Translations under genes and position numbers: made by a program
Notes under the pieces: generated by a model
What the model saw: only the letters and a program-made list of their open reading frames with translations
Databases searched by the model: none
What the model was told of the DNA's origin: nothing
Shown here: positions 2,684 to 63,768 of the stretch, piece after piece
Layout: each line of letters starts with the position of its first letter
How positions within the stretch are numbered: the first letter of the stretch is position 1
Origin: Gordonia hongkongensis
Lineage (GTDB): Bacteria > Actinomycetota > Actinomycetes > Mycobacteriales > Mycobacteriaceae
DNA: 64,000 nucleotides
Assembly (NCBI RefSeq): GCF_023078355.1
Contig: NZ_CP095552.1
Coordinates: forward strand, 1,054,001 to 1,118,000
Direction of reading: 5' to 3'

Positions 2684-2694
2684 CCGAGAGGATC

Positions 2695-2714
2695 GGCTGT
2701 CTCGCTTCTTCGGC

Positions 2715-2725
<11 letters not shown>
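2695..2725 (+). terminator. Hairpin after type III res
   Basis: Perfect 9-bp inverted repeat (GGCTGTCTC / GAGACAGCC) with a 13-base loop, 12 bases after the res stop codon. It has no T-tract, as is common in high-GC actinobacteria. The first in-frame GTG of the following hsdM remnant (2715) lies inside this hairpin, so that GTG is a poor start codon. Confidence 0.5.
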
Positions 2726-3931
<1,206 letters not shown>

Positions 3932-3935
<4 letters not shown>

Positions 3936-5155: not shown

Positions 5156-5156
5156 T

Positions 5157-8100: not shown

Positions 8101-8298
8101 CAGGCGCGCAACAACTCCCAATCCCAGTTCGAGGCGAGCCCCGACATCGACATCGAGTTCAACGGAGCCGTCATCGAGGCTATGGACGCGCACGCCGACC
8201 TCTCCACCCAGATTCTGAACAACGCAGTGATCCGAGACAAGTTGGTGTCGGAGCTTGTTCCCGCCATCTACCGACGCTTGAGGGCAGAGTCGGCGTAA
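5157..8298 (+). pseudogene. hsdR: Type I restriction subunit HsdR, two frameshifts
   Basis: ATP-dependent translocase and nuclease subunit of the type I system. Motifs appear in normal order but in three reading frames. The first frame holds the nuclease core (AIDLVLF...VELKTN, bases 5590-5650). The second holds Walker A HSAGSGKT (about 6121-6144), the DEAH box (about 6464-6475), FTATPK, and motif VI SRLNRT. The third holds the C-terminal helical tail starting near VRDPDLVELEEV. The shifts lie at about 5985-6010, beside G-runs, and about 7895-7925, beside a GGGG run; each is explained by one missing base. Restoring two bases gives about 1047 residues, a normal length. The ATG lies 2 bases after the hsdS stop. 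Given the truncated hsdM this may be real decay, but sequencing error is possible. Confidence 0.88.
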
Positions 8299-8342
8299 CC
8301 AGCGCCAATCTACGTGTACTGGAACGAAAGGAACATCGATTT

Positions 8343-10184: not shown

Positions 10185-10230
10185 GTCAAGTCCAGCCGTA
10201 GATGCGTCAGCCGTCTTGCAGGGTGATCTG

Positions 10231-10273
10231 CCCCTACTCGCTGCGCTGCCGGAGGCGGCGCAGCGAGTAGGGG
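10231..10273 (+). terminator. Strong 16-bp hairpin in the 320-base gap
   Basis: Perfect 16-bp inverted repeat (CCCCTACTCGCTGCGC and its complement) with an 11-base loop, 46 bases after the DUF262 gene stop. It very likely ends the R-M transcript. The gap 10185-10504 otherwise shows no gene. A segment near 10337-10350 looks like a tRNA T-loop but lacks a matching stem. Confidence 0.7.
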
Positions 10274-10504
10274 GTTGAGCCGGTGGTCCGACAGGAAGAC
10301 AGCGCCCGTGCGTAGGGCCAGCTGCGATCCACGCGGGTTCGAGCCGCATTTGCGGTACCCGGTGCTGTTGTCAGACCTCTGGTGCATTCTGTGTGGACCA
10401 ATACGTCTCGGCTCGAGGCGGCTCGGTGGAAGGAAGCGGAGGCGAAGTGTCGGCGACAATGCCGGAGTGTGGGGCGACCGCCTTTGGAGTCGGAAAACGG
10501 GTTG

Positions 10505-15843: not shown

Positions 15844-15894
15844 TCGCCCCATCGTGCGCTTGGCGGCCGCCGGCGGTGATTCCGCAGGTTCGGT

Positions 15895-15922
15895 CATCAT
15901 GTCACACCCACCAGGCATGATG
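15895..15922. promoter_or_regulatory. Inverted repeat before the AddB/AddA-like pair
   Basis: Perfect 7-bp inverted repeat CATCATG / CATGATG with a 14-base spacer, ending 5 bases before the ATG at 15928. The position suits a repressor site or a structure over the ribosome-binding site; no clear Shine-Dalgarno sequence is present. No cognate regulator is recognised. Confidence 0.3.
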
Positions 15923-15927
15923 GCCCC

Positions 15928-18738
15928 ATGCCCACCGTGATGGACCAGTTGGCGGAGGCGGTGTCCCGCGCCAAGTCCGGCTCACCGCTGACCCAGGTCT
16001 CTGTCATCGTGCCGAGCCACGGCTCCGGCCGGGACGTCCTGCACCACCTGGCGCGGACGCAGGGAGTGGCCAACACCAGCGTCCTCACCCTTGGGCAGGT
16101 GGTGGACAAGCTCGCCGCGCCCGCGCTCGCGCCTCGCCAACCGTTGCCGTATCCGCTCCTGGAGGCGGCGGTCCAGAGAGTTCTCGCCGACGCGCCGGGC
16201 GTCTTCGCCGACGTCGCCGACGAGCCCATCACGTCACAGGCTCTCGCGAGCGCAGCCTGGGAACTCACCGGTATCGCCGAGCCGGCTATGCAGTCGCCGA
16301 CGCCCCTCGTCGCCGACCTGCTGCGTATCCATTGCGTCACGAAGGAGCGTTTGACCGGCTCGTATTACCTTCAGCATGAAGCGTATTCGGCCGCCGCCAA
16401 ACGGTTCGACGAGCTCGGCGCGGTGATCGTCCATCACCCGGCCGCTCACGCGCCCGCCGAGCAAGCCCTTCTCAGTGAGCTCCAGCGCCGCGGCGAGACC
16501 ATCGACGCGAACACCCACGTCTCACCCACCCAGGTCATCCACACCTCCGACGCCGACGACGAGATCCGCGCCGTCGTCCGGCTGGTCCGCAAACACCTCG
16601 CCAGCGGGGTGCCCGGCCACCGCATCGGCATCTTCTACGGCACCGACGACCCCTACCTTCCGCTGCTCCACGAGCACCTCACCGCCGGCCACATCGCTTT
16701 CGCCGGACCCGAATGCCACACCCTCGTCGACCGTCCCACCGGTCGCGCATTGCTCGGGTTGCTGGCACTCGACCACGACACGATGCCCCGGCGGGAACTG
16801 TTCACCCTCCTCGCCGAAGGCGCACTCCGACGCCCCGAACTCGATGACACGCCGATCACGCAGCCCCAGCTCGAACGCCTCACGCGCAGCGACGAACCCA
16901 TCGTCGGCGGCGCCGACTGGGAGCGCCTCACCCGCGTCGGTGCGCACGAGAAGCACCACGCCAGGGCCGCGGCCGTCTACTCCTACGTCCGTCGCCTGCA
17001 GGTCGACCTGCGCGCTCTCGTCGACGCGCCGGACTGGGCGACCGTCGCCGAACATCTGAACACCCTGCTCGACACCTACTTTCGCACGCCGAAACGCGAG
17101 ACCGCGGCCGCCGACCTCGCCGCGATCCGTGCCGACTGCGCGGGAATCGCCCTGATGGACGGCATCGCACCGCAGCCCACCGCGGCTCGGGTGCTCGACG
17201 CGGTCTCGATCCGGCTGAACGCGCACCGAGGCATGCACGGGACGTCGGGTGCAGGCGTGACGGTCGCACCGATCGCGTCGGGAGTCGGTCGCGACCTCGA
17301 CGTCTGCGTCGTCGTCGGTGCCGCCGAAGGCATCGTGCCCGCACCCCGCCGCGACGACCCGCTTCTCCCGCCGGAACTGATCGGCATCACCGCCCGCGAT
17401 CACATGGAACGCCAACGCCTCGTCTTCGCCGGTGCGGTGAGTGCCGGGCGCACCGAACGGGTCGTCACCTTCCCGCGCGGCAACCTGCGCGGCGGCGCCG
17501 AGAAGGTACCGTCCCGCTGGCTGCTGCCGGCGCTGGCCGATCTCGCCAGCCGCGACGTCGACGTCGTCAACTGGCAACGCGCGACGGAGGATTCGCCGCA
17601 GATCGTCGCAGTCGAATCCTTCGACGTCGCCGCCCAACGCGCCGACGAGCGCATCGGCGCCTCCGCGGCCTCCGACACCGAATGGCGCCTCCGCGAACTC
17701 GCCGCCGTCCCCGCCGACAGTCGTCGCGGAGCGCTCGACGATCCGATCATCAACCGCGGCATGCACATGCGCAGCGACCGCCTCAACGGCCGCTTCACCC
17801 GGTTCAACGGCAACCTGTCGTCGGTCAGCGAACTCATCACCACCTTCGATCAGCCGGTGTCGCCGACCGGCCTCGAACTGTGGGTGCAGAGCCCCTATCA
17901 GTACTTCCTCGAACACATCCTGCGCCTGCGTGCCCTCGACGACCCCGACGAGATCGCCCAGATCGACGCATTGACGCGGGGGACCCTGATCCACACCATC
18001 CTCGAACGGTACGTCCGCGCGACCATAGACGGCGCAGAGCTCGATCTCGCCCGTCTGCGGATCGTCGCCGCAGAAGTTCTCGACGAGGCGCAGGCCAACA
18101 GCCCGGGCTGGCTCGAACAGCTGTGGGCCAAGGACCGCGGCACCATCATGCGCGACCTGGACGAATGGTTCACCCACGACCACGCCGACGCCGCCGACGG
18201 CTGGCAGCCGACGCACGCAGAGGCGGACTTCGGTCTCGACGCGCAAGGCAGTCACGAGGTCTCGCTGGAACTGGGCGAAAGCAGGATTCGCTTCCGCGGG
18301 CAGATCGACCGCATCGACCGCCACCACGGTGGACGCATCCGCGTCACCGACTACAAGACCGGCAAGTCCGACAAATACAAGGACCTCGCCGAGAGCACAC
18401 CCACCAACTCGGGTCTCCAGTTCCAGCTCCCCGTCTACGGTCTGTTCGCCCGCACCTTCGGCGCCGACGTCGAAGCCCGGTACTGGTTCATCACCAGCAA
18501 AGGCAAGTTCGCCTCGGTCGGCTACCCCGTCACCGACGACGTCGTCGCCACCCTCATCGACGACATGACGCTCGTGCACAAGTCGATTCGGGCCGGGTAT
18601 TTCCCGCCCAAGATCGAAGACACCCACTGGGACTTGCCCGTCATCGACCTCCTCGGCCGTGCCGGACTGCGACGCGCCTGGGCCGCACTGGAACACGTCG
18701 ACGAACTGTCCGACTACGTGCAGAAGTACGGAGGCTGA
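15928..18738 (+). CDS. PD-(D/E)XK nuclease, AddB-like helicase-nuclease subunit
   Basis: The 936-residue protein resembles AddB/RexB: a degenerate helicase-like body without a working Walker A, then a C-terminal RecB-family nuclease. The nuclease part shows SPYQYFLEHIL (about residue 655), RGTLIHTILE (about 690), GQIDRID (about 791) and DYKTG (about 808-812), which supply the His, Asp and DxK metal-binding residues. Classical AddB has cysteines around this domain for an iron-sulfur cluster; the matching position here is SPYQYF, without Cys. One base separates it from the helicase gene, so the two form an operon. The likely role is duplex-end resection in DNA repair or defence. Corynebacteriales usually use AdnAB, so this would be an additional machine. 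ATG at 15940 is an alternative start. Confidence 0.82.
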   Translation: MPTVMDQLAEAVSRAKSGSPLTQVSVIVPSHGSGRDVLHHLARTQGVANTSVLTLGQVVDKLAAPALAPRQPLPYPLLEAAVQRVLADAPGVFADVADEPITSQALASAAWELTGIAEPAMQSPTPLVADLLRIHCVTKERLTGSYYLQHEAYSAAAKRFDELGAVIVHHPAAHAPAEQALLSELQRRGETIDANTHVSPTQVIHTSDADDEIRAVVRLVRKHLASGVPGHRIGIFYGTDDPYLPLLHEHLTAGHIAFAGPECHTLVDRPTGRALLGLLALDHDTMPRRELFTLLAEGALRRPELDDTPITQPQLERLTRSDEPIVGGADWERLTRVGAHEKHHARAAAVYSYVRRLQVDLRALVDAPDWATVAEHLNTLLDTYFRTPKRETAAADLAAIRADCAGIALMDGIAPQPTAARVLDAVSIRLNAHRGMHGTSGAGVTVAPIASGVGRDLDVCVVVGAAEGIVPAPRRDDPLLPPELIGITARDHMERQRLVFAGAVSAGRTERVVTFPRGNLRGGAEKVPSRWLLPALADLASRDVDVVNWQRATEDSPQIVAVESFDVAAQRADERIGASAASDTEWRLRELAAVPADSRRGALDDPIINRGMHMRSDRLNGRFTRFNGNLSSVSELITTFDQPVSPTGLELWVQSPYQYFLEHILRLRALDDPDEIAQIDALTRGTLIHTILERYVRATIDGAELDLARLRIVAAEVLDEAQANSPGWLEQLWAKDRGTIMRDLDEWFTHDHADAADGWQPTHAEADFGLDAQGSHEVSLELGESRIRFRGQIDRIDRHHGGRIRVTDYKTGKSDKYKDLAESTPTNSGLQFQLPVYGLFARTFGADVEARYWFITSKGKFASVGYPVTDDVVATLIDDMTLVHKSIRAGYFPPKIEDTHWDLPVIDLLGRAGLRRAWAALEHVDELSDYVQKYGG

Positions 18739-50923: not shown

Positions 50924-51478
50924 CTAGCAACCCAGTACGGCGGCCTTCGCCAGGCCGCCGTACTGGTACGCGTAGACGCCGGCCCACAGAACCGGGTTGG
51001 CGCTGTAGTCGCGCGGTACCGCGTGCATGACGACGTCGCCGTCGAAGCACTGGCCGAAGATGAACCGGGCCCGCACCAGGTGGTAGCTCCAACTGATGAC
51101 GATGACGTCGTCCCAGTTGTGCTCCCGGGCCATCTGCCGGACGTACATCGCCTCCCCGCGCGTCGTCGAGGGCTCCGGCTCGAAGCACGTGACGGTGATG
51201 GTGGCGGTCCCCGCCGAACAGGCGCCGGGCATCATGGCGTCGAACTCCGTATACGGCCGGTAGGGATCGGAGATCAGCACGTGATTGGCGTAACCCCTTC
51301 GCGCTAGCTCGATTCCGTAGGCCTCGCGGCCGTCGTGTTCGCCGCCCAGGACGACGATGGCGTCCACCTTGCGCAGCGGGTCCTGGTGGTCGCGGGTGAA
51401 CAACTGGTAGCCGAGTACGGCGGAGGCCACAATGGCGACGACCAGGACGCCGACGAGGACCCGGAGAGCGCGTTTCAT
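50924..51478 (-). CDS. YdcF-like DUF218 membrane protein
   Basis: The 184-residue protein has one N-terminal membrane anchor (ALRVLVGVLVVAIVASAVLGY) and a DUF218 domain (AIVVLGGEHDGREAYGIELA, HVLISDP, STTRGEAMYVRQMA, VIVISWSYHLVRARFIF). ATG 51478 overlaps the polymerase stop (ATGA), so it is coupled to polysaccharide synthesis. DUF218 proteins are linked to envelope biogenesis but the reaction is unsettled. The last codons lie within a perfect 15-bp hairpin. Confidence 0.82.
   Translation of the reverse strand: MKRALRVLVGVLVVAIVASAVLGYQLFTRDHQDPLRKVDAIVVLGGEHDGREAYGIELARRGYANHVLISDPYRPYTEFDAMMPGACSAGTATITVTCFEPEPSTTRGEAMYVRQMAREHNWDDVIVISWSYHLVRARFIFGQCFDGDVVMHAVPRDYSANPVLWAGVYAYQYGGLAKAAVLGC
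50932..50966. terminator. Bidirectional hairpin inside the ydcF-like 3' end
   Basis: Perfect 15-bp inverted repeat (CCAGTACGGCGGCCT and complement) with a 5-base loop. It lies in the last codons of the DUF218 gene and 19 bases after the convergent LLM gene stop, so one hairpin can end both transcripts. Confidence 0.65.
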
Positions 51479-52848
51479 GCCGCGGCGGGGAGTTTCTCGG
51501 GGTGCGACGGCGCCGGGGTACCCGGTGGTCCGGTGAGCCGCAGGGCGACGATCAGATACACCAGCATCAGGGACAGATCGGTGACCGAGACGGGGATGGT
51601 CACCGTGCTGAAGTCGAGTTGCATACCCAGCACGAAGAAGGCGATGAAGCCGCCGCCGTAGAACGCCACCCACGGCCGGCTCGAGCGCAGGCACCGATAG
51701 GCCAGGTAGCAGCCGTAGATCATGATCGCGGTGAACACCACTCCGACGAAGATCCCGCCGCGATACACCGACAGCAGCGGTGCGTTGGCAACATAGTTGA
51801 TGGTGAAGGCCTGTTCGGGATCCTTGAACTCGGCGATTCCCCATCCGTGCCCGAACAGCCAGTGGCCGTCCATCTTTCCCGGGAACTCACGCAGTGCGTC
51901 GGACCGGGCGGTGGAGCCGGTGTCGTCTTCTCCGAAGGAGGAGAAGATCCGGCGACGCGACGCCGGGAACGCGGCCAGCAGCACCATTCCGCCGACGAGC
52001 GACCCGGCGATGACGGCGCGACCCCGGGTCGTCATGGTGTGAAATGCGAGCATCAGCAGCAGGCCCAGCACGACGCTGAATATCGCCGCGCGGCTCAGAG
52101 TCATGGCGATCGCCGCGAACATTACGACAGCGAGAACCCAGCGCCGGCCGCCGTCGAAGACCAGCATGCTGATCATGAGGGCGGCGAGGAAGCCGATGCC
52201 CGCGGCGTTCGGGTCGATGTAGGTGCCGGACAGGCGAGCGGTGACCGACGCGCCGCTGAACACGAAGCGTCCCGCCGATGCCGAGTCATACCCGAAGGGG
52301 GACAGCAGATCGAAGGTGCGCGCGGACTTGTCCACGGTCAGCATCACGAGGCCCAGCCCCGCCGACACCGCGGACGCGACGACGAACACCTGGCCGAACA
52401 ACCGAAGTTGGTCGGGCCGAAGGCGCAACAGTGCCACGACAAGGAGGACTGCGCTCGACCATTTCACGTACTCGACGATGTCGACGGCGCCGTGCAGGGT
52501 TGCGACGACGGAGGCACCGCCGACGGCGACGAGCACGCACAGGGCGCGTTCCAGCGGGACGAACGTCCGTACCTCCCGCGTATGGAGCACGGTGGCGAGG
52601 AGCACCGCGACGGTGAGCGCGAAGATCATGGGAATCGGTGTGCCGGGCAGATATCCAGCAGGCAGCACAGCGATCACCACCGCCAGGATCCACAGCAGCC
52701 ACGTCGGATGGGCGAGTCCGACGTACCCTCCGATCACCAGGAAGACCGCAAGGAACGCCGCGGTCACCGCCGTTCCACCGGCCATCAGGCAGACGAAGGC
52801 GCCGACCGCCGCCGCGGCCACGATCAGAAGTGAACGAACGATCCCCAC
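51475..52848 (-). CDS. O-antigen ligase/polymerase-like membrane protein (Wzy type)
   Basis: The 457-residue integral membrane protein has about 11-12 helices and a large loop around DALREFPGKMDGHWLFGHGWGIAEF, the usual site of the Wzy_C domain; FGHGWG matches the conserved GxGxG region. It should polymerise or ligate repeat units outside the membrane. GTG 52848 was chosen since it begins the first helix (VRSLLIVAAAAVGAFVCLMAGG); residues further upstream look non-coding. It is divergent from the Wzz-like gene, so the 244-base gap likely holds both promoters. Confidence 0.83.
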   Translation of the reverse strand: MGIVRSLLIVAAAAVGAFVCLMAGGTAVTAAFLAVFLVIGGYVGLAHPTWLLWILAVVIAVLPAGYLPGTPIPMIFALTVAVLLATVLHTREVRTFVPLERALCVLVAVGGASVVATLHGAVDIVEYVKWSSAVLLVVALLRLRPDQLRLFGQVFVVASAVSAGLGLVMLTVDKSARTFDLLSPFGYDSASAGRFVFSGASVTARLSGTYIDPNAAGIGFLAALMISMLVFDGGRRWVLAVVMFAAIAMTLSRAAIFSVVLGLLLMLAFHTMTTRGRAVIAGSLVGGMVLLAAFPASRRRIFSSFGEDDTGSTARSDALREFPGKMDGHWLFGHGWGIAEFKDPEQAFTINYVANAPLLSVYRGGIFVGVVFTAIMIYGCYLAYRCLRSSRPWVAFYGGGFIAFFVLGMQLDFSTVTIPVSVTDLSLMLVYLIVALRLTGPPGTPAPSHPEKLPAAA

Positions 52849-53092
52849 TGCGGCATCATCGCACGATCCGACCGTACCCACCGGTTCGGAGCGTTCTCGG
52901 TAACGGGCGTGGGACGCAACGCGTTCAAGATCACAGTACTCGGAGCGCGCGGTCCGCGCGCACTGGTTAGAGTTGTCGCGTCGGGGGGCGGCACGAACGG
53001 TCGAACAGCCTCCACGGACACGTCCATCGGACATCACGCGGTGGATATTCGGCGCGTCAGCCAGCTCACCATCCCCGGAAGGAGGCATGTTC

Positions 53093-54577
53093 GTGCCACT
53101 CAGTGACTACGTTCGCGTCATCGTGCGTTATTGGTGGGCGCTCGTCGCCGGCGCGGTCACCTTCGGACTGATCGGTTTCGGTTACGGCATGTTCGTCCAG
53201 TCGACGGAATACGTGTCGTCCGCAAGGCTTTTCGTCACGGCGGAGGGCGGAACCTCGGTCGGCGAGTCGTACCAGAACAACCTCTTCGCCGAGGGTCGCG
53301 TCAACTCCTACGCGCAGGTCGCGGTGAGCGAACAGGTCGCCACTCGCGCGTCGGCTGCGCTCGACGGGGCGATCAGTCCCGCCGACCTGCGAGCCCGGAC
53401 GACCGCACTGCCGGTCGACGACACCGTCATCCTCACCATCTCGGTCACCGGACCGAGTCCACAACGCGCACAATCGTATGCGTCCGCGATCGCCCAGCAG
53501 ACCGTCGAGGTAGTCGAGGAACTCGAGACCTCTCGGCGCGGCGGCACCCCGGCCGCCTCGGCCGTCCTCTACGACGAGCCGGGCCTCCCCGCCCGCGTGA
53601 GCCCGCCGTGGCTCCCCTGGACCGCGCTCGGGGTCGTCGGGGGACTCGTGGTGGGTGTACTCACCGCGTTGCTGCTGGGGTGGCGCCGCCGGGGCACCGT
53701 CGAGGACGTGTCGGCGGCTGTGGATTCGGCGCACCACCCGGTACTGGCGACGGTGACACATCGAGCCGACGCGGCCGATGGGCCGGCGGGCCTCGGCACG
53801 GCCGATCCCGACGCCGACTCGCTGCGCGGAGCGCACAACCTGATCCGTTTCCTGGGGGCGCAACGACAGCCGGACGGCCTTGCGCCGCGGGTACTGGGGT
53901 TCGTCGGCGTCGGGAAGGACAGCGAAGCGGGTTCGGTCGCAGCGCGGTTCGCGGCCACGATCTCCGCCACGGGCAACAGTGTCCTGCTCGTCGACGGTGA
54001 TCTCACCGGCCACGGGATCACCGGCGCCACGTCGTCGTCCGACCATGGTCTGTCGACCGTCCTCACCGGCAGCGCCGGGAGCGTCGATCCGTTCGTGAAG
54101 CGAGGAGACCTCACGGTCCTGCCCGCCGGACCCGTTCCGCCGGAACCGGGTGCGCTGGTGAGCGGACCCGCGGTGGCCGGCGTGTTCGACGACCTGCGGA
54201 GCAGGTTCGACTACATCGTGATCGCCGGACCGGCGATCGTGTCGAGCCCCGGGGCCATCGTGTTCGCCGCACTCGCCGATGCCACCGTCGTGGTGGTGCG
54301 TAGTGGTGCCGCGACGCGGAAGTCGTTGCGCGAGACCGTGGAGACCATCGAGCTCGTCGGCGCCGTCGCCGGCACCATCCTGGTCGGCGGCACGGCCTCC
54401 CGGTCTCGTGCGGACAAGGCGGCTCCGGCGGCCGACGATGCGGCTCCGCACGTCGGGACGGACGCCGAACGCGGAGCGCCGAGTTCGGCCGGCATCCGCG
54501 CCGAGGTCTACCGCCACACACGGGACGGTCGCGTGGCGTCCCCGATCGGGGTGCCGGACGACGGGGCGGGTCGTTGA
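53093..54577 (+). CDS. Wzz-like chain-length protein fused to a degenerate BY-kinase domain
   Basis: The 494-residue protein has an N-terminal Wzz domain (first helix YWWALVAGAVTFGLIGFGYG, second helix WTALGVVGGLVVGVLTALLL near residue 190) followed by a CpsD/CapB-like P-loop domain. The usual Walker A is replaced by VGVGKDSEAGSV (about 271), and the Walker B Asp is lost (FDYIVIAGPA, about 371). There is no Tyr cluster, so kinase activity is unlikely. GTG 53093 was chosen because AAGGAGG lies 7 bases upstream; ATG 53087 is only one base from it. It is first in a run of genes joined by 4-base overlaps. Confidence 0.85.
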   Translation: MPLSDYVRVIVRYWWALVAGAVTFGLIGFGYGMFVQSTEYVSSARLFVTAEGGTSVGESYQNNLFAEGRVNSYAQVAVSEQVATRASAALDGAISPADLRARTTALPVDDTVILTISVTGPSPQRAQSYASAIAQQTVEVVEELETSRRGGTPAASAVLYDEPGLPARVSPPWLPWTALGVVGGLVVGVLTALLLGWRRRGTVEDVSAAVDSAHHPVLATVTHRADAADGPAGLGTADPDADSLRGAHNLIRFLGAQRQPDGLAPRVLGFVGVGKDSEAGSVAARFAATISATGNSVLLVDGDLTGHGITGATSSSDHGLSTVLTGSAGSVDPFVKRGDLTVLPAGPVPPEPGALVSGPAVAGVFDDLRSRFDYIVIAGPAIVSSPGAIVFAALADATVVVVRSGAATRKSLRETVETIELVGAVAGTILVGGTASRSRADKAAPAADDAAPHVGTDAERGAPSSAGIRAEVYRHTRDGRVASPIGVPDDGAGR

Positions 54578-55856
54578 CGCGGCGGTCGCCCCGTCGGATC
54601 GGCCTCTCCGGACTCGCCGCCGTGATCGTCACCGCTGCCCTGGTAAGTGGTTGTGGGACAAGCGGTGTCGCGGATGATTGCACCGGCCACGCCGCCATCC
54701 CCCTGACGATCCAACCGCCACCCGACCTGGTGACCCCGTACCCGGAACCGGTGGTCGTCGGTGCCCGCGACACGGGCAGTCCAGGTGCCGTCCTGGAGGT
54801 CGAGGATCCGCCGCGCGGCCCGATCCCGGTCATCGACGAACTCGGTGCGATAGTCAAACGCGTCGAATACCGATCGACATCCGGTCTGGATCGGTCCCCG
54901 ACGGTGGTCTCGGGGATAGTGGTGACACCGAAGGGCATCCCACCTGAGGGAGGCTGGACGACCATCTCGTTCGGACACGGCACCACCGGCGTGCTCGACA
55001 ACTGTGGTCCGTCGGAGTACGCCAACCTGATCGGCAGCGATCAGATCATCGCGGCACTGGTCCTCAACGGCTTCGCCGTGGCGATGTCCGACTACGAGGG
55101 TCTCGGGATCCGCGGTGCCGATCACGCGTTCCTCGACGCGCGATCGTACGGCTACAACATGATCGACGCGGTGCGTGCCGCACGTGCGGTCTTCCCGGGG
55201 CTGAGCGACAGATGGATCTCCTACGGGGTGTCGCTGGGTGGCATGGCCTCCTGGGCGGCAGGCGAACTCGCTCCCATCTACGGTGGCGGTCTCGACCTGC
55301 TGGGCACGGTGTCGCTGGTGCCGGTGTCGAACATGACCGGCCTGGTCGATCGCGCCGAACGGGGCACGCTGACACCCGATCAGGTCCCGATGATGGCCTA
55401 CCTCGTCGATTCGGTCGCCCGCACCCTGCCCGACGACTTCGATCGCGACGACTATCGGTCGGCGTTCCTGAGGGAGAACTGGGCCGAGGTGCTCCGCTGC
55501 ATCCCGATCGACGTCGACATCACCCAGCGCGTCCTGAACTCGATCGGTGTCGAGGACGTGCGGCCCCGGACCCCCGGGCCTCTGCGCGATTGCGCGACTA
55601 CCTCAGGTACACCGCGCTTCCGGTGGGGGTCGCGCGTGCCCCGACTCTCATCATGTACAGCACCGACGACCCGCTCATCGCGGCACCGTGGACCGAGGGC
55701 GCGATCCGTCGCGCCTGTGCGGCCGGGTCGCCGATCCAGGCGATTCGGCGGATCGGTGAGACGCACGCCGATCTGGACTCCGGTCAGTCCGTGGCATGGA
55801 TGAAGTCGCTGGCGAACGGATGGAATCCGCCGCAGAACTGCCAGGACGTGCAGTGA
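54574..55856 (+). pseudogene. LIP-family secreted lipase 1, frameshifted
   Basis: Lipoprotein of the secretory lipase (LIP) family. The signal ends at LVSGC (Cys27). FGHGTTG gives the oxyanion loop and YGVSLGG the nucleophile Ser220. The first frame runs to GVEDVRPRTP. At about 55570-55577, in CCCCCGGG, the frame moves by -1 and continues with RLRDYLRYTALPVG, the catalytic Asp in YSTDDPL and His in GETHADLD. Adding one base gives a complete enzyme of about 427 residues. TTG 54574 overlaps the preceding stop (TTGA). The intact downstream half suggests sequencing error or a very recent mutation. Confidence 0.82.
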
Positions 55857-56584
55857 GGTCCCCGTCGTCGCGGCGACCGTCGGACTACCTCGGCATGGTC
55901 CGCCGGAACATCGTGGTGGTCGTCGCCTCGTCGCTCGCCGCGGTTCTCGTCGGCCTCGGGGTGTTCGCCCTTACGCCCGAGACCTACGAGGCACGCTCGA
56001 GCGCACTCGTTCTCGCGCCGGGGCCCTCGAGTGTTGCCGCCGAGCAGGCCAGTGACCTCGCCGGGCAGTTACGTACCGCGAGCTACGTGCAGTTGGCGAC
56101 GTCGGACCAGGTGCTGGCCCGGCTGGTCGTCGACGACGACGCCGGGGTTCTCGGTGACGGCGTCACCCTGGACGAACTTCGTGGGCGCCTGATCGTCACC
56201 TCGCTGCCGGACACCGCGGTGCTCGAGATCGTCGCCACCGGACCCACATCGCAAGCGGCGATGTATCTCGCCGACGGCGTGGTCGAGGTCCTGCGCGACC
56301 TCGTGGTGGAACTCGAATGGAGCTCGGTGCCGATCGCGCGTCCGCTGCACGCGATCGACGTGATCGACGTTGCGCGGGCTCCCGATTCGCCGATACTGCC
56401 CGATCTCGGGAGCACGCTCGGCACGGCCGCGGCCTTGGGACTGGTGGTGGCTCTGCTGCTCGTCGTCGCAGTGGAGCTCGGACGCGATCGGGTCGTCGAC
56501 CCGCGGGAGGCACGCGTGCCACGGGCACCGGACCACCGCAGCGACGACGATCTGGTGGGGGCACGGGGAGGGACAGCACGATGA
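55853..56584 (+). CDS. Wzz-like polysaccharide chain-length determinant
   Basis: The 243-residue protein has two membrane helices (NIVVVVASSLAAVLVGLGVF near the N-terminus and GTAAALGLVVALLLVVAVEL near residue 205) around an extracytoplasmic domain with coiled character. This is the Wzz topology without a kinase. GTG 55853 overlaps the lipase stop (GTGA). It is a second Wzz-like protein in the same operon, so two chain-length modes or a heteromeric complex are possible. Confidence 0.78.
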   Translation: MRSPSSRRPSDYLGMVRRNIVVVVASSLAAVLVGLGVFALTPETYEARSSALVLAPGPSSVAAEQASDLAGQLRTASYVQLATSDQVLARLVVDDDAGVLGDGVTLDELRGRLIVTSLPDTAVLEIVATGPTSQAAMYLADGVVEVLRDLVVELEWSSVPIARPLHAIDVIDVARAPDSPILPDLGSTLGTAAALGLVVALLLVVAVELGRDRVVDPREARVPRAPDHRSDDDLVGARGGTAR

Positions 56585-57825
56585 GGACACCGAGAACCGG
56601 GGGGCGGGGGATCGCGACGATCCTGCTGACCGCGGCCATCGCAGTGGCGGGATGTTCGACGGCGCCACCCGACCCCGGCACGGCCCCGGTGGGCGCGGGC
56701 GGCGTCGAGTACCGTGTCGACACCGAGGGCACGGGCCCCGGTGCTCTACGCGCGGCCGAGACGATGCCACTACTCGACCGGCGGGTGCGGGCGAACTCGC
56801 AACTCGCTCTTCGGGTCAGGTACGTCTCGACCGACGGACGGACCGGCGCCCAATCCGAGGTGTGGGGTGCGTTCTTCGCGCCGAGAGGGCCTGCGCCCGC
56901 GGGTGGGCGGCGGGTGATCGTCCTGCCGCACGGAACGAGCGGAGTCCTGGGAGAGTGCGGCGTCACCCTGAGGTCCGATCTCGGAGACCTCGCGGTGACC
57001 GCGGCCGGCTGGCTCGAACTGGGGTATGTCGTCGCGGTGCCCGACTACCAGGGACTGGGGATTCCCGGCGAGGGACGGCCGACCCACCCGTATCTGGATG
57101 CACGTACCGCCGGCCGCAACGTCATCGACGCGGTGCGGGCCGCGCGGCACCTGGTGCCCGGGACCGGGACGAGTTGGGCCGCGCTCGGTGGTTCGCAGGG
57201 TGGACAGGCCGCCTGGGCTGCCAACAAACTGGCCAGAAGCTATGGGGGCGAACTCGATCTGGTCGGAGTCGCCGCGCTGTCGCCTGCCTCCGACGTCTCC
57301 GAACTCGCCGACCTCGCTGCCCGGGAGCAGATGACGGTCGAGCAGTACGGTCTGCTCAACTGGCTCCTGCTGGCCCTCGAATGGGAGAACCCGCAACTCG
57401 ACCTGAGCCGGTTCGTCGGTCCCGACGTCCTGATGCACTGGGACGAGCTGTCGCAGTGTTCGGCATCCCAGGGCGCACGACGCGCCGAGGTGCTCGGGTC
57501 GCTGACGCCGGAGAACCTCCGACCGTCCTCACCCGCGGCAGTCGCGGAACTACGGGCTCTGCTGCGCGAACGAGCGCTGCCCGACCTCCCGGCCGCGTCG
57601 CCGTCACTCGTGATCTACGGCGGCAAGGACGAACTCGTGTTGTCGCGTTGGACGACCGCGGCGATCCGGGACAGCTGCGCCCGCGGCGACATCGTCCACA
57701 CGCAGTTCCAACCCGCCGCCGACCACGGCGGCGTCGACGGCCGTCAGGTGGTGGGCTGGCTGACCGCCCGCTTCGACGGTGAGGCGAGTTACAACCGATG
57801 TGTCGAGACCGAGGACGCGCCATGA
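56581..57825 (+). CDS. LIP-family secreted lipase 2 (lipoprotein)
   Basis: The 414-residue protein has a lipobox VAGC (Cys25). Family motifs: VLPHGTSG (oxyanion loop), DYQGLGIPG, LGGSQGGQAAWAANKLA with Ser205, Asp in YGGKDELV and His in AADHGGVD. This is the alpha/beta-hydrolase triad of LIP lipases. ATG 56581 overlaps the Wzz-like stop. A lipase coupled to Wzz proteins and an acyltransferase suggests removal or transfer of acyl groups on a surface polysaccharide (inference). Classical LIP enzymes cleave triglycerides or esters. Confidence 0.85.
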   Translation: MRTPRTGGRGIATILLTAAIAVAGCSTAPPDPGTAPVGAGGVEYRVDTEGTGPGALRAAETMPLLDRRVRANSQLALRVRYVSTDGRTGAQSEVWGAFFAPRGPAPAGGRRVIVLPHGTSGVLGECGVTLRSDLGDLAVTAAGWLELGYVVAVPDYQGLGIPGEGRPTHPYLDARTAGRNVIDAVRAARHLVPGTGTSWAALGGSQGGQAAWAANKLARSYGGELDLVGVAALSPASDVSELADLAAREQMTVEQYGLLNWLLLALEWENPQLDLSRFVGPDVLMHWDELSQCSASQGARRAEVLGSLTPENLRPSSPAAVAELRALLRERALPDLPAASPSLVIYGGKDELVLSRWTTAAIRDSCARGDIVHTQFQPAADHGGVDGRQVVGWLTARFDGEASYNRCVETEDAP

Positions 57826-59105
57826 CCGAAGAGTTGGCACGACCCGGCGGCACGGTCCCGCCGGCCGCCGCCGGCGGGCCCACCACCCCGGCTGCGGCGA
57901 CGCCTCAGCGCAGCCGCATCCGCGGTCTCGACGGTCCGCGGGGTCTCGCGTGCTGGGCGGTCGTGATCGTCCATGTGGCGGTGCACCATTCGCCGGACAC
58001 CATGAGTCGCGGTGGACTCCAGCTCCTCGGCCAGGCCCTCATCTTCTTCTTCGCGCTCTCGGGCTTCCTGCTCTACCTGCCCTACGTGCGAGATCTGCTG
58101 CGGGAGCGGCAATCGCCACCCGACGTCCGGATGTACCTGACGCACCGGGTCCTCCGGGTGTTCCCGGCGTACCTGGCGATCTTCCTCGTCGTCAACTTCG
58201 TGTTGCAGGCGTCGTTCCTCGCGAACGAGTACGCGGTGAGCGAGACCGGCGAGGGCACCGGAACCGGCATGATCACGGATCCGTGGATGCTGCTCACCAA
58301 CCTCTCACTGACCCAGACCTACTTCCCGCAGTATCTCCAGACCGGTATCAGCCCGGCGTGGTCGCTGACGCTCGAACTCGTCTTCTACGTATCACTTCCG
58401 CTCTTCGGGATGGCGATGTGGTGGCTGCGGAGGAGGTTCGGCACCCATGCGGCACTGCTGGTGGTGGGCCCGCCGGTGCTGCTGATCATCGTGGGCACCA
58501 TCGGAAAGCTGGTCGCCGGCAAGGTGGCCGCCGCCGAAGGCATCACCGATGTCACCGAACAGAACTGGGGACCGAACGCCGCCGCGGTCATCCTGCGCAG
58601 TTTCTTCGCCGCCTCCGACAACTTCGCGTTCGGGATGCTCGCGACCGCCGCCTTCGTGGCGGTCGGGGCCGGCCACATCTCCGCTCGGATCGCACGGCGG
58701 CTACGGGTCGGGGCGGTCATCGCCCTCGTGCCGTCGTTGATGGCGATGCTGCTGCTCATCGCGGCCGGGTCGTCGTTCCAGTCGACCTTCACGGCACTGG
58801 CGTCCGCGCTGGTCATCCTCATCATCGTGCTGCCACTCGCGAGCGGACAGGACAGCAGACTCGCCTCGGTCCTCGACTGGAAGCCGTTCGACTACAGCGG
58901 CCAGGTGTCGCTCAGCATCTACCTGTGGCACTTCCCGCTGATCATCGTGCTGGGCCGGCTGGGATGGTTGCAGGGGGATTCGGTCCCCGGACTCGCGATC
59001 AACATCGCACTCGTCGGTGCGGTCACTCTGGTGTTCGCGAGCCTGAGCTACCACTACGTCGAGAAGCCGGCCATGACGCTCGCCCGTAAGTTGCGAACGC
59101 GATGA
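57822..59105 (+). CDS. Acyltransferase-3 family membrane protein
   Basis: The 427-residue OafA/YrhL-type transferase has about ten helices. The N-terminal signature RIRGLDGPRGLACWAVVIVHVAVHH carries the conserved Arg/His. The later FALSGFLLYLPYVRD and SLTLELVFYVSLPLF segments are typical. Such enzymes O-acylate surface sugars, usually with acetyl or succinyl groups. ATG 57822 overlaps the lipase 2 stop, and its own stop overlaps lipase 3 (both ATGA), so the three are made together. Confidence 0.9.
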   Translation: MTEELARPGGTVPPAAAGGPTTPAAATPQRSRIRGLDGPRGLACWAVVIVHVAVHHSPDTMSRGGLQLLGQALIFFFALSGFLLYLPYVRDLLRERQSPPDVRMYLTHRVLRVFPAYLAIFLVVNFVLQASFLANEYAVSETGEGTGTGMITDPWMLLTNLSLTQTYFPQYLQTGISPAWSLTLELVFYVSLPLFGMAMWWLRRRFGTHAALLVVGPPVLLIIVGTIGKLVAGKVAAAEGITDVTEQNWGPNAAAVILRSFFAASDNFAFGMLATAAFVAVGAGHISARIARRLRVGAVIALVPSLMAMLLLIAAGSSFQSTFTALASALVILIIVLPLASGQDSRLASVLDWKPFDYSGQVSLSIYLWHFPLIIVLGRLGWLQGDSVPGLAINIALVGAVTLVFASLSYHYVEKPAMTLARKLRTR

Positions 59106-60325
59106 TCGGCGTCGTCCGCCGACATCCGTTGCTCGTCGCCGTTCCGTTCGCGCTGGTGTCGAACCTGGTCGTGCTGCTCGTGCTGGTCGCCGGAATACGC
59201 ATCTCGAAGGTCGCGCTCGAATCCGACGACGCGCCGGTGCCTTTCACCGCGACCGAGGGACCCGGGAAGGTGGTGTCCGCCGAACGTGTCGGCACTCTGC
59301 CGTTGTCGGCACGACTCGACGACGTCAGCGCCATCCGGGTGGAGTACTGGTCGACCGACGCCGGCACCGGAAAACCCACCGTCGTCAGCGGCCTGATCGT
59401 CACCGGGCCCGAACCCGAAGCCGGACAGACACGTCCGGTGGTGGCGTTCGCACACGGCACCACCGGCATCGACCAACCGTGCGCACCATCGGTGGCCGAC
59501 GGGATGTACGGTCTCGGAGTCCTGGCCCACAATCTGGTGAAGGCGGGATTCGTCGTCGCCCTTCCCGACTACCAGGGCCTGGGCGCCCGGGGCGTACACC
59601 CTTACCTCGACGCGCGCACAGCGGGACGGAACGTCATCGACTCCGTGCGGGCACTGCGAGCGGTGCTCCCGTATGCCTCTGACACCTGGGCGGCCTACGG
59701 CGGGTCGCAGGGAGGCGGTGCGGTGCTGGCGGCCGCCATGATCGCACCGCAGTACGGAGCCGAGACAGGCCTGGTCGGCGCGGCGGCGATGGTGCCGGCC
59801 GCCGACGTCGTCGGTCTGGTCGAGAAGTCACGTGCGGGGACGATGACCCGGGACCAGCAACTCATGCTGCAGTGGGTCCTGGAGGCGTGGTCGCGTTCGG
59901 ATGGCTCGGTACGGCTCGACGACTACCGTCGCGGCGCTGCGGTCGGCGCGTGGGACACACTGTCCGCGTGCACCGGCCCGGCGACTGCACGGCGTGCAGC
60001 GGCCGCCGGAACACTCGGTCCGGGCGACATCGGCCCGGGCACCGATGCGTCGGCTACGACGCTGGCGGCGCGATTGACGCGCTATGCGGTGCCCGTCGCG
60101 CGGACACCGGTGCCGATGTACGTCCTCTACGGTGGGACCGACACGTTCATCGACGCCGAGTGGACGGCGTCGTTCATCGAGCGGGCCTGTGCGGTGGGGG
60201 ATTCGGTCACGGTCGATCACCAACCGGACCGAGGGCACGCCGACGTGGACGCGGTGGCGATGCTGCCGTGGATCCTGGACAGGTTCGCCGGGGAGCCGGT
60301 GCCGTCGGGTTGCCACGGACGCTGA
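59102..60325 (+). CDS. LIP-family secreted lipase 3
   Basis: The 407-residue protein has an N-terminal signal anchor (LLVAVPFALVSNLVVLLVLV) rather than a lipobox. Motifs: FAHGTTGIDQPC, DYQGLGARG, YGGSQGGGAVLAA with Ser202, Asp in YGGTDTF and His in DRGHADVD. It is clearly a paralogue of the two preceding lipases. ATG 59102 overlaps the acyltransferase stop. The different anchoring suggests a distinct location, membrane-proximal or released after cleavage. Confidence 0.85.
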   Translation: MIGVVRRHPLLVAVPFALVSNLVVLLVLVAGIRISKVALESDDAPVPFTATEGPGKVVSAERVGTLPLSARLDDVSAIRVEYWSTDAGTGKPTVVSGLIVTGPEPEAGQTRPVVAFAHGTTGIDQPCAPSVADGMYGLGVLAHNLVKAGFVVALPDYQGLGARGVHPYLDARTAGRNVIDSVRALRAVLPYASDTWAAYGGSQGGGAVLAAAMIAPQYGAETGLVGAAAMVPAADVVGLVEKSRAGTMTRDQQLMLQWVLEAWSRSDGSVRLDDYRRGAAVGAWDTLSACTGPATARRAAAAGTLGPGDIGPGTDASATTLAARLTRYAVPVARTPVPMYVLYGGTDTFIDAEWTASFIERACAVGDSVTVDHQPDRGHADVDAVAMLPWILDRFAGEPVPSGCHGR

Positions 60326-60351
60326 TCAACCGAACGTCGACGGGGACTCCC

Positions 60352-61236
60352 ATGAACACTCATCCGGTTCCGTCCGAGCAAGATCTACGCCGCCACGGCG
60401 ACGCACCGCTGACGGTGCAATGGACGGTCCGGGCGAAGGATGCCGTCAAGCGCTTGCGGGCGTCGGGAACCGAGGTCGAACCCGCAGGAAACTACTCTGT
60501 GGTCGCGGTTCTCGGACAGTCCAACGCTCACGGCGCGGGTCGTCTCGTCCCCGGTCAGCGTCCGCCCGTACCAGACCCACGGGTGCATCAGTGGCCCGGA
60601 TGCGGGCGCCGCCGCGGTCGTGTCCTGCTCGCCGAGGACCCACTCCTGCACGAGATCCCGGGCGCGGGCGCAGGATTCGCGACGACGTTCGGCTCACTGC
60701 TCGCCGTTCACACCGGCCGGCCGGTGTTGCTGGTGCCGTCTGCGCGTGGGGACACGGCCTTTCGACAGAAGAACGGCTACAGCTGGGATCGCGGCAACCG
60801 CACGGCCCGTGTGAACCTGTACGACCTCGCGGTTCGTCAGATCGCCAACGCACTCACCGCGGCCGGCCGGGATTCTCGACTCGCCGCGATCCTCTGGCAC
60901 CAGGGTGAGAGCGATGTCCCGCTGACCCGTCCCGAGGTCTACCGGGACAAACTCGATGCGCTGATCAACGGTCTGCGAGACGAATTCGGCCCGGTGCCGT
61001 TCCTCCTGGGACGGATGGTGCCCGAGGAGATCGCGACCGGGCACCCGGGATATCCGGGCATCGACTCGATCCACGCGGACGTTCCGTCGAGACACCGGTC
61101 CTGCGCCTGTGTTGCCGGTCCGCGGGGGATGCACAACCCCGGTGAACTGATCCACTACAACGCCGAGGGCCAGCAACACCTCGGGCACGCGATGTTCGAG
61201 GCCTACCGACGGCTGGAAAGTTCGTCACCCGCGTGA
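60352..61236 (+). CDS. Carbohydrate acetylesterase, SASA/DUF303-like
   Basis: The 294-residue SGNH-type esterase shows VVAVLGQSNAHGAG with nucleophile Ser (about residue 56), WHQGESDVP (about 182-190) and IHYNAEGQQHLG with the catalytic His. The pattern fits sialate/xylan O-acetylesterases (CE6-like). No clear signal peptide is present, so it may act in the cytoplasm on repeat units or be exported another way. The gap to lipase 3 is 26 bases. It balances the acyltransferase gene in the same run and is probably the last gene of the operon. Confidence 0.78.
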   Translation: MNTHPVPSEQDLRRHGDAPLTVQWTVRAKDAVKRLRASGTEVEPAGNYSVVAVLGQSNAHGAGRLVPGQRPPVPDPRVHQWPGCGRRRGRVLLAEDPLLHEIPGAGAGFATTFGSLLAVHTGRPVLLVPSARGDTAFRQKNGYSWDRGNRTARVNLYDLAVRQIANALTAAGRDSRLAAILWHQGESDVPLTRPEVYRDKLDALINGLRDEFGPVPFLLGRMVPEEIATGHPGYPGIDSIHADVPSRHRSCACVAGPRGMHNPGELIHYNAEGQQHLGHAMFEAYRRLESSSPA

Positions 61237-61267: not shown

Positions 61268-62782
61268 TCAGTATGCGCCGTCCTTGGCGATCACGGCACG
61301 CGCCGTCTTCCAGAGAATCGTCAGATCCTGCATGATCGACCAGTTCTCGACGTAGGAGAGGTCGAGGCGGACCGCTTCCTCCCACGACAGATCCGAGCGC
61401 CCCGACACCTGCCACAATCCGGTCATCCCCGGCTTGACGAGCATGCGCCGCGCCACCCGCCCGTCGTACTTCTCAACCTCTTCCGGCAGCGGTGGTCGTG
61501 GTCCGACGAGGCTCATGTCACCGGTCAGCACGTTGAACAGCTGTGGGAGTTCGTCGAGGCTGTAGGCGCGGATGACGTTGCCCACCCGCGTGACCCGCGG
61601 ATCGTCGCGCATCTTGAACAGCAGACCCGCGCCCTCGTCCTGGTCGTGAAGATCGGCACGCATCCGGTCCGCGCCGGTCACCATCGACCGGAACTTCCAC
61701 ATGCGGAAGGTCCGGTTCCCCACACCCACGCGCTCGGCACGATAGAAGACGGGCAGACCGGTGTCGACCACGACGGCGACGGCGACCACGACGAGCAGCG
61801 GTGCCAGCAAGAGGATCAGAAGTGCTGCGCCGCAGCGGTCCAGCGCCGCCTTACGGAGCCGGCTCGCCGCCTCGTACCGCGGGTGATCGATGTGGAGCAG
61901 TGGCAATCCGGCCACCGGGCGCACCATCATCCGCGGGCCGGTGACATCGGCGACGCCCGGCGCCAGGACCATGTCGACGTCGAGACCGTGCAGATTCCAC
62001 GACATATCCTGCATGGCCTGGTGGCCCAGGGCGTCGGCGGAGGTGACTGCCACCGTGGTGGCGCCGCAGGCGCCAACCGCAACGGCCACGTCGTCGAAGT
62101 CCCCGAGCACCGGGACGACGGCTCCCTCTACGGCGATCTCGCCGGAACCGCTGCGCATACCGGAGGGCAGACATGCGCCGACCACCTCGTAACCCAGGGG
62201 GGCGGCGGCCGACAACCGTCGGATCGTGGGGCGTACCGACTCGTCACTTCCGACGATCAGCACCGATTCCCGGTGGCGGCCCGCGACTCTCGCGCGGGCC
62301 AGCATTCTGCGGAACACGTTCCTGCTCACCAGCAGCCCGATCGTCCCGACAGGCAACGCGATCGCGAGATAGCCGCGTGCGATGTTGATCCGGAACAGCA
62401 GGTCGATGATGGCGAGGGTGCCGAACACGGTGAAGCAGGCGGTCGCCACCCGGCTGTACTCCTGCGCGCCGGAACCGAAGATCCGCCGGTCGTAGGACTG
62501 GAAGGCGAACAGCGCGGTCAGCCACACGACCACGAGAACAGCCGACGCGACGATCCAGGGAATGCGAACGCCGGCAGCGGAATCAAGTGATCCGCCGGAC
62601 CCGAAACGGAGCTGCTGGGCCATACCCACCGACCCCACCACGACGAGGACATCCGCCCGCCGCAACCAGGTCCGGTACCTGGGTACCCAGGACCGGGACC
62701 GGGACTGACGACGTCGCACGGCCATCGGTCGCCGGAAGACCGGATCGTGCCTGCCGGGCGGTGACTCGTCTGCCGTGGTCAT
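61268..62782 (-). CDS. Undecaprenyl-phosphate sugar phosphotransferase (WcaJ/PssY-like)
   Basis: Initiating enzyme of polysaccharide synthesis: it moves a hexose-1-phosphate to undecaprenyl phosphate. The 504-residue protein has N-terminal helices, a central CoA-binding-like Rossmann domain (SVLIVGSDESVRPTIRRL) and a C-terminal bacterial sugar transferase domain with KFRSM, DELPQLFNVLTGDMSLVGPRP and KPGMTGLWQVSGRSDLS. The start ATG 62782 overlaps the end of the upstream dehydratase gene. The strand is opposite to the lipase operon, but the function is shared. Confidence 0.92.
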   Translation of the reverse strand: MTTADESPPGRHDPVFRRPMAVRRRQSRSRSWVPRYRTWLRRADVLVVVGSVGMAQQLRFGSGGSLDSAAGVRIPWIVASAVLVVVWLTALFAFQSYDRRIFGSGAQEYSRVATACFTVFGTLAIIDLLFRINIARGYLAIALPVGTIGLLVSRNVFRRMLARARVAGRHRESVLIVGSDESVRPTIRRLSAAAPLGYEVVGACLPSGMRSGSGEIAVEGAVVPVLGDFDDVAVAVGACGATTVAVTSADALGHQAMQDMSWNLHGLDVDMVLAPGVADVTGPRMMVRPVAGLPLLHIDHPRYEAASRLRKAALDRCGAALLILLLAPLLVVVAVAVVVDTGLPVFYRAERVGVGNRTFRMWKFRSMVTGADRMRADLHDQDEGAGLLFKMRDDPRVTRVGNVIRAYSLDELPQLFNVLTGDMSLVGPRPPLPEEVEKYDGRVARRMLVKPGMTGLWQVSGRSDLSWEEAVRLDLSYVENWSIMQDLTILWKTARAVIAKDGAY

Positions 62783-63768
62783 ACGGCTGCCGCCCGGCGG
62801 TCGTCACTCCGGGACGCCAGGTTCAGGTCATGGCGGACCATCGCGGCAACCACCTCGTCGAACACCGTGGTGGGGCGCCAACCGAACTCTTCGGTGATCT
62901 TCCGATGGTCACCGACCAGATCCACGCCGTCGGCCGGACGCACCAGGGCCGGGTCGGCGGTCACCATCTCGTGCCAGGACTCGATCCCCGCGACCCGGAA
63001 CGCAGTGGCGAGAAAGTCGCCGACACTGTGTGATTCACCGGTTGCAACGACGTAGTCGTCGTTGGCCCGGTGATCGGCGAGGATCGTCATCGCGTCCACG
63101 TAGTCCGGTGCCCAGCCCCAGTCGCGTCGCGCGTCGATGTTGCCCAGCACGATCTGCGTCGCGCGGCCGGTGGCGATCGCGGCGACCCCGGCCGTGATCT
63201 TGCGGGTCACGAATCTCGAGGGCCGCAACGGGGACTCGTGCGGGTAGAGGATGGCGTTCGCGACCTCGACGCCTCTCGCCCGTGCGACCGCTCCCATCGT
63301 GTGGCCGTAGGCCTTTGCGGCGCCGTACGGTGAGTTCGGCGCGATGGGGGTTCTCTCGTCCTGCGGAGTCACCGCCGCTCCCGCGAAGATCTCGGCGCTC
63401 GACGCGTTCACGACATGCACCGGGTGGCCCCGGTCGCCGAGATCCGCAGCGGCTTCGAGCACCGCGACCGTCGACATCCCGTTCACCCGGGTCGTGGTCA
63501 GGGGATCGGCCCAACTCTGCGCCACCGAGGACACTGCCCCGAGGTGAAAGATGTGGTCCGGGGCATGATCCAGGATCACCCGACGGGTCGCCTCGGCGTC
63601 GCCGAGGTCGACCGGGCTCGTCGCCACGATGCCCTCGGCCGGAGGGCCCCCTGCGTGCCCGGGCCTCACCACGGCGATGACGTCCCATCCCCGGGCGACC
63701 AAGGTGCCGGTCAGAAGCCGCCCGTCCTGCCCGTTCGCGCCGGTGACAAGCGCACGTGGCGGGGTCAT
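62779..63768 (-). CDS. GDP-mannose 4,6-dehydratase-family epimerase
   Basis: The 329-residue extended SDR has the NAD-binding motif LVTGANGQDGRLL, catalytic Ser/Glu in NASSAEIFAG, Tyr/Lys in SPYGAAKAYGH and the GMD-like stretch HESPLRPSRFVTRKITAGVA and LGNIDARRDWGWAPDYVDAM. It is shorter and more diverged than the neighbouring gmd, so it could be a second dehydratase, a 4-keto reductase or an epimerase of the same pathway. ATG 63768 overlaps the gmd stop (ATGA). Confidence 0.8.
   Translation of the reverse strand: MTPPRALVTGANGQDGRLLTGTLVARGWDVIAVVRPGHAGGPPAEGIVATSPVDLGDAEATRRVILDHAPDHIFHLGAVSSVAQSWADPLTTTRVNGMSTVAVLEAAADLGDRGHPVHVVNASSAEIFAGAAVTPQDERTPIAPNSPYGAAKAYGHTMGAVARARGVEVANAILYPHESPLRPSRFVTRKITAGVAAIATGRATQIVLGNIDARRDWGWAPDYVDAMTILADHRANDDYVVATGESHSVGDFLATAFRVAGIESWHEMVTADPALVRPADGVDLVGDHRKITEEFGWRPTTVFDEVVAAMVRHDLNLASRSDDRRAAAV

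Follow-up and report, generated by a model that had tools for sequence, protein, structure and literature searches.

The window analysed here is a 64,000-nucleotide stretch of the Gordonia hongkongensis genome (contig NZ_CP095552.1; G000:C1:1054001-1118000), which totals 5.4 Mb in two contigs. Positions 53093-61236 of its forward strand carry an exopolysaccharide (EPS) operon with the gene order wzz1, LIP1, wzz2, LIP2, AT3, LIP3 and a SASA esterase gene. The wzz1 gene (53093..54577) encodes a probable Wzz co-polymerase fused to a domain resembling bacterial tyrosine (BY) kinases; its start, GTG at 53093, follows from alignment with relatives, with ATG at 53087 as a possible alternative. The product of wzz2 (55853..56584), a gene that starts within a GTGA overlap, is a probable stand-alone Wzz without a kinase domain. 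Wzz1 and Wzz2 score just under the PF02706 cut-off (25.2 and 24.4 bits; cut-off 25.5) and match NCBIfam chain-length and EPS families below cut-off, and the kinase-like part of Wzz1 was recognized from matches to kinase families, also below cut-off, and from its Walker-A column.

All three LIP proteins match PF03583 above cut-off, LIP1 in its N-terminal part (54574..55803), a lipoprotein alpha/beta-hydrolase segment with a GVSLGG serine motif. LIP2 (56581..57825) is a predicted lipoprotein with a VAGC lipobox and the residues Ser205-Asp350-His382, while LIP3 (59102..60325) has a hydrophobic N-terminal anchor, a Candida antarctica lipase A fold and the residues Ser202-Asp347-His379. The AT3 gene (57822..59105) encodes a membrane acyltransferase of 427 amino acids in which PF01757 is the sole domain (96.2 bits; cut-off 31), with no fused SGNH domain; its R-X10-H motif, at residue 40, is kept in 9/9 sequences, and we take this motif in the sense generally attached to it in AT3 proteins. 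The SASA-family (PF03629; 81.9 bits, cut-off 24.8) SGNH carbohydrate esterase (60352..61236), which a preliminary description of this DNA had left unnamed, begins 26 bases past LIP3 and carries GQSN and HQGESD motifs (6/6); it is probably cytoplasmic, since it lacks a hydrophobic N-terminus. That description had reported a polysaccharide operon with three secreted lipases and an acyltransferase. Gene order and families bear this out, but “secreted” is too loose: lipoboxes were found in LIP1 (8/8 examined, and in the window) and LIP2 (9/9), and LIP3 has a hydrophobic N-terminus without a lipobox (7/7), so that the LIPs look membrane-tethered rather than freely secreted.

LIP1 is not a single frame in the window. 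The frame opening at TTG 54574 overshoots the end of the true protein and closes only at the stop at 55803; the C-terminal part, including the Asp and His, is encoded in another frame (55212..55856; first ATG at 55212, open from ~54948). The gene is a single frame, with the catalytic triad present, in 8 aligned relatives. A near-identical intact LIP1 is also in the database (P0001; 100% identity over 94% of the N-terminal piece, continuing into the C-terminal piece); it could derive from the present genome or from one almost identical to it. Either an assembly error or a recent mutation may account for the split.

Neighboring genes of the operon are joined by the five 4-base overlaps reported previously, all of which are in the sequence (TTGA, 54574-54577; GTGA, 55853-55856; ATGA, 56581-56584, 57822-57825 and 59102-59105), although with LIP1 split the GTGA joins wzz2 to the second LIP1 frame. 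Such overlaps are common nearby, at 11 of 51 same-strand neighbors called with a crude gene caller in the window plus ~39 kb downstream (3 of the 11 being the operon's own), and it is therefore their conservation, not their presence, that counts as evidence. In the 30 top-scoring LIP1 loci (window included), an in-frame start codon that would create the overlap, which does not prove the start actually used, was found for LIP1/wzz2 in 29, for wzz2/LIP2 in 30 and for wzz1/LIP1 in only 10; the sole LIP1/wzz2 exception is the window's own split gene. In nine Gordonia/Williamsia loci the overlaps are present for wzz1/LIP1 in 9/9, LIP1/wzz2 in 8/8, wzz2/LIP2 in 8/8, LIP2/AT3 in 5/9 and AT3/LIP3 in 6/7. 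One locus, L049 (genome G022), was left out of the two wzz2 counts because its wzz2 frame differs, the C-terminal part lying in a different frame from that of relatives. Translational coupling of LIP1, wzz2 and LIP2 is thus a well supported prediction from conserved sequence, whereas the fixed stoichiometry proposed earlier does not follow: an overlap points to coupling and not to a ratio, and the first overlap is absent in 20/30 loci.

The neighborhood survey of LIP and Wzz genes that had been suggested gave a uniform result: all 30 best LIP1 loci, from five genera (g1, g6, g16, g18, g29), have the order Wzz1-LIP1-Wzz2-LIP2 on one strand. A Wzz1 profile run against 351 genomes of the family gave 38 best matches in the same five genera, each followed by a LIP (judged from match coordinates or fetched loci); special cases are the split LIP of the window, a ~170-residue piece in G023 and a LIP in G426 that scores best as LIP2. 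In G023 (L190), only this short LIP1 piece follows wzz1, with no wzz2 or LIP2 match in the fetched stretch, which suggests a decayed or rearranged locus. The full form of the locus is found in about one in nine family genomes, to which a compact form and G405 (broken Wzz1) add a few. LIP1-like genes are more widespread (148/351 family genomes at E<=1e-70), many being single LIPs elsewhere. At the order level, operon-type LIP1 (E<=1e-60) occurs in 13/249 genomes, all of one family (3/68 genera), and at the class level (E<=1e-50) in 13/296 genomes (4/114 genera), with one match outside the family, in a 4 kb locus where neither Wzz nor AT3 nor SASA was matched.

A general link between Wzz and LIP genes was considered and rejected. 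When every third locus among the lower-scoring Wzz1 matches listed was sampled (hand-chosen G023 and G393 not counted), no LIP lay within 3 kb in 35/38, and the remaining three are of the locus type described here. The LIPs are tied to this locus type and not to Wzz generally, and the earlier remark that LIP lipases are unusual in Wzx/Wzy loci holds for the sampled Wzz-kinase loci of the family.

Within the genus, the distribution is patchy. A wzz2 search of 151 genomes (own included), among them 58 other Gordonia and other relatives, recovered 18 stretches, eight with the cassette and ten without, two of the latter (L055, L056) having a single LIP. The cassette is present in seven other Gordonia species (G019, G014, G022, G035, G029, G054, G009) and in G073, with some variation: LIP3 and SASA lie apart in G054, neither was found in G009, where the locus is near a contig end, and SASA was not found in G073. 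Of the named relatives recovered, Gordonia alkanivorans (L065) and G. amicalis (L066) are the closest, and both have the locus with LIP1 unsplit; an AT3 search of genome contigs matched only two relatives. Wider stretches from genera g6, g18 and g29 (L109-L120; L121-L124 were taken for other reasons) have the full form in 10 of 12, with AT3 in 10/10, LIP3 in 10/10, SASA in 7/10 and three to five LIPs each. The other two (L118, L119) have a compact form in which three LIPs follow Wzz1, no AT3, SASA or second Wzz is matched, and a second hexapeptide-transferase gene lies beside the LIPs; L184 and L191, on shorter stretches, are also compact. In the five wide loci of genus g29 (L111, L113, L114, L115, L116), the LIP genes around this operon number four or five. 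Two further EPS loci (L122:6795-12198 in G083; L056:4043-12319 in G021) combine a LIP, Wzz-like genes and a GDSL/SGNH hydrolase in a different layout, and the LIP/Wzz association may therefore have arisen more than once. The locus is real and conserved and, as far as our searches show, lacks an earlier description: no account of LIP genes in an EPS locus was found in the titles or abstract openings of the papers listed from a mostly open-access literature.

The kinase-like part of Wzz1 looks like a pseudokinase, judging from its motifs. We compared the aligned Walker-A column of LIP-linked Wzz1 with that of 30 ordinary Wzz-kinases of the family, after dropping incomplete and duplicate sequences. 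The lysine is present in 30/30 ordinary genes and in 0/36 LIP-linked genomes (37 sequences, G356 being in twice: 28 Arg, 5 Ala, 4 Thr), counts that are inflated by related species. Tyrosines in the last 60 residues number 0-2 in LIP-linked Wzz1 and 1-6 in the ordinary proteins, ranges that touch, and the Walker B aspartate is kept in 33/37 LIP-linked sequences. This genome also encodes a second Wzz-kinase (L061:9551-10822), which has a canonical Walker A and tyrosines in its tail.

A tree of 90 LIPs (midpoint root; labels from the best match to hidden Markov models) places the 28 LIP3-labelled sequences in one clade (28/28, support 0.98). LIP1 and LIP2 form further groups that are less well supported (0.87 and 0.71 for their Gordonia/Williamsia members, among which other genera are nested). 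As these groups mix genera, the LIP duplications seem to predate the genera. Some LIP2-labelled genes of the compact form are nearer LIP1 or LIP3. Eleven of the 14 LIP-family matches in this genome lie outside the operon, and none of these has a match to Wzz, AT3 or SASA within 1.5 kb. Nine of the eleven fall outside the operon clade, and of the other two, one (L004) is a 43-residue piece whose placement means little. Another LIP gene of this genome (G000:C1:1280757-1281530) lies ~11 kb from the second Wzz-kinase.

The catalytic triad is kept in 27/28 LIP2, 27/28 LIP3 and 18/23 LIP1 members of the tree. The LIP2 exception occupies the first slot, next to wzz1, in L114, and L121, which holds the LIP3 exception, does not belong to this locus type. 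Triads are broken in the first slot of L113, L114, L115, L118 and L184, as well as in L122, which is of another locus type; among the other LIPs of this locus type, no triad loss was seen. This repeated loss suggests that catalysis is dispensable in the LIP adjacent to wzz1.

The flanking genes supply other components of a Wzx/Wzy-dependent pathway. Divergent from wzz1 is a gene for a Wzy-type polymerase or ligase (open frame 51475..53088, reverse strand, with a likely start well inside it, e.g., 52848; PF04932, 36 bits, cut-off 31.7, a family that also includes ligases), followed by a YdcF/DUF218 gene (50924..51478, reverse) that is conserved next to the locus. Convergent with the operon is the gene for the initiating polyprenyl glycosylphosphotransferase (61268..62782, reverse; TIGR03025, 405.6 bits, cut-off 295.55). 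Two GDP-mannose-dehydratase-family genes, also convergent, lie downstream of the operon; the second of the two crosses the window end. One protein is closest to true GDP-mannose dehydratase (1rpn) and the other, encoded at 62779..63768 (reverse), is a divergent second member of the family that possibly performs the reductase step to GDP-rhamnose or a similar sugar. Beyond the window end are a weakly GH39-like gene (below the Pfam cut-off), three glycosyltransferase genes, a gene for a WcaF-like acetyltransferase (NCBIfam match below cut-off) and a probable flippase gene.

Gene order, family membership, catalytic residues, lipoboxes or anchor, and conservation can all be read directly from sequence. 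We propose, with moderate confidence, that the enzymes of the operon edit acyl groups on an exopolysaccharide at the membrane's outer face, in the polymerization/decoration arm of the Wzx/Wzy-dependent pathway. The LIPs, which are conserved and old, suggest along with AT3, the SASA esterase and the WcaF-like acetyltransferase that the polymer undergoes acyl chemistry, and to that extent the earlier suggestion that the LIPs are acyl editors is retained. AT3 would draw acyl groups, fatty or acetyl, from acyl-CoA in the cytoplasm and pass them to the polymer at the outer face, following the AT3 model set out in PMC9833829. Tethered on the same face beside Wzz and Wzy, LIP2 and LIP3 may strip ester-linked acyl groups from the growing chain or move them to other positions on it. 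LIP1, encoded between the two Wzz proteins, would serve the Wzz complex mainly by binding the acylated chain, a role suggested by the several losses of its active site. The WcaF-like acetyltransferase and SASA esterase could edit the repeat unit similarly in the cytoplasm before flipping. If the kinase part of Wzz1 acts as a scaffold, as we suppose, then chain length would be controlled without tyrosine phosphorylation of Wzz1.

Several points weigh against this proposal. Acylation of the polymer is a prediction from gene content, and the strains with published fatty-acid EPS are at most candidate carriers of the locus. The locus is a minority trait, at 7/58 other Gordonia genomes, and AT3 is not required everywhere, given LIPs in the compact form without an AT3, SASA or second Wzz match. 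The fold does not separate a hydrolase from a transferase, and the structure model of LIP3 has weak stretches at residues 120-135 and 159-165. Wzz1 of the window, like that of G023, has a lysine four residues before the Walker-A column, with no Ser/Thr after it. The candidate Wzx flippase (L015:7140-8360) has no Pfam or NCBIfam match and owes its label to conserved position only.

An alternative that we consider unlikely is that LIP2 and LIP3 are outer-face partners of AT3 in acyl transfer, i.e., an alpha/beta-hydrolase counterpart of the fused SGNH domain of OafB-type proteins. AT3 here has no SGNH domain, and its gene is flanked by those of LIP2 and LIP3, overlapping each by 4 bases in the window and in four other loci (L047-L050); according to PMC9833829, the SGNH part of OafB is essential for transfer. 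However, the compact locus form has LIPs without AT3, the LIP2/AT3 overlap is limited to 5/9 loci, and an extra gene lies between AT3 and LIP3 in L112, L117 and L120. AT3 proteins that need no partner also exist. Comparably improbable is a more elaborate scheme in which control of chain length by tyrosine phosphorylation has been traded for acyl control: the pseudokinase Wzz, the second Wzz and an acyl-binding or acyl-reading LIP1 would form a complex with LIP2 and LIP3, which would replace the SGNH partners in AT3 acylation, and acylation would decide when a chain stops or is released.

We give somewhat less credence still to the idea that the LIPs are acyltransferases that esterify mycolate or another long acyl group to the chain, tying the polysaccharide to the envelope in the manner of antigen 85. 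The family carrying the operon makes mycolates, antigen 85 enzymes esterify mycolate to other glycans and lipase A is able to transfer acyl groups in water; membrane tethering of the LIPs fits, as does the restriction of the operon-type LIP1 locus to one family. That restriction is equally expected from plain vertical descent of the locus, however, and the antigen 85 type esterase family gave no match to the LIPs at E<=0.001. The mycolate-linked glycan raised in the preliminary description does not gain support here. Least probable of all is that the LIPs are ordinary lipases that feed on outside lipids and merely share a promoter: most LIP-family genes of this genome do lie elsewhere (11 of 14) and no cassette turned up in most of the Gordonia genomes examined, but order and overlaps are conserved across genera, the first-slot gene stays in place in lineages that have lost its active site, LIPs are absent beside ordinary Wzz genes, the 11 other LIPs are free of Wzz, AT3 and SASA matches for 1.5 kb around, and at least 9 of them fall outside the operon clade.

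The locus shares with Wzx/Wzy EPS loci that have a BY-kinase co-polymerase (Wzc/CapAB type) the grouping of initiating-transferase, Wzy and probable Wzz genes with those for glycosyltransferases and sugar nucleotides, and differs from them in a Wzz1 kinase without the lysine and tyrosine tail, a second Wzz, and usually three (up to five) LIPs. EcpK of Myxococcus xanthus is described (PMC12004946) as a BY pseudokinase that acts as a scaffold with EpsV; there too, a kinase-like domain without catalytic motifs serves a Wzz-type protein. In contrast to EcpK, the domain here is fused to Wzz, is part of a single LIP-containing locus type of actinobacteria, and in most members keeps the Walker A' and B aspartates. 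With OafB-type AT3-SGNH proteins (PMC9833829), the shared features are an AT3 domain with R-X10-H and outer-face acylation of carbohydrate, the latter presumed here; in contrast, our AT3 has no fused SGNH, its outer-face neighbors have the alpha/beta-hydrolase fold, and the SGNH (SASA) protein looks cytoplasmic. Known LIP/PF03583 lipases include Candida antarctica lipase A (2veo, 3guu) and the Xanthomonas LipA esterase (3h2g-3h2k), at ~15% identity; the operon LIPs differ from these in being, as predicted, membrane-tethered and encoded in an EPS operon. According to the available sections of a review (PMC12786566), Rhodococcus EPS carries ester-bound fatty acids and the rhamnose-containing EPS PS-33 is acetylated, so that related bacteria have acyl esters on polysaccharide, for which this locus is at most a candidate source; those sections name no genes for the fatty-acid EPS. 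In the main text of a 2025 screen of Rhodococcus EPS genes (PMC12298843), lipases are mentioned 0 times.

If acyl editing by the operon is the correct reading, the locus would provide candidate genes for the acylated, emulsifying exopolysaccharides of these bacteria, a new role for lipase-A-type enzymes in polymer editing rather than fat digestion, and a naturally occurring collection of Wzz pseudokinases in which to study how chain length is set without phosphorylation.

A horizontally acquired island was considered as an origin of the operon and rejected: its G+C content (0.68-0.69) is close to that of the surroundings, and the same genes flank it in close relatives. A multi-module nonribosomal peptide synthetase (NRPS) with a terminal thioesterase follows the EPS glycosyltransferase genes (L015:10150-19998, L016:1-5085). 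We treat it as lying outside the conserved EPS system: in this genome and in G019 and G022 it adjoins the EPS genes, whereas in G029 it was not seen beside them; no NRPS was seen in the 3.5 kb before the contig end in G035, and the G014 contig ends too early to show one. At the other end of the window, positions 1-16000 have a G+C content of 0.59-0.615 (0.66-0.72 elsewhere) and contain frames that we take, from their N-termini, to be helicase-like and DUF262-like; this region is possibly a mobile or defence island.

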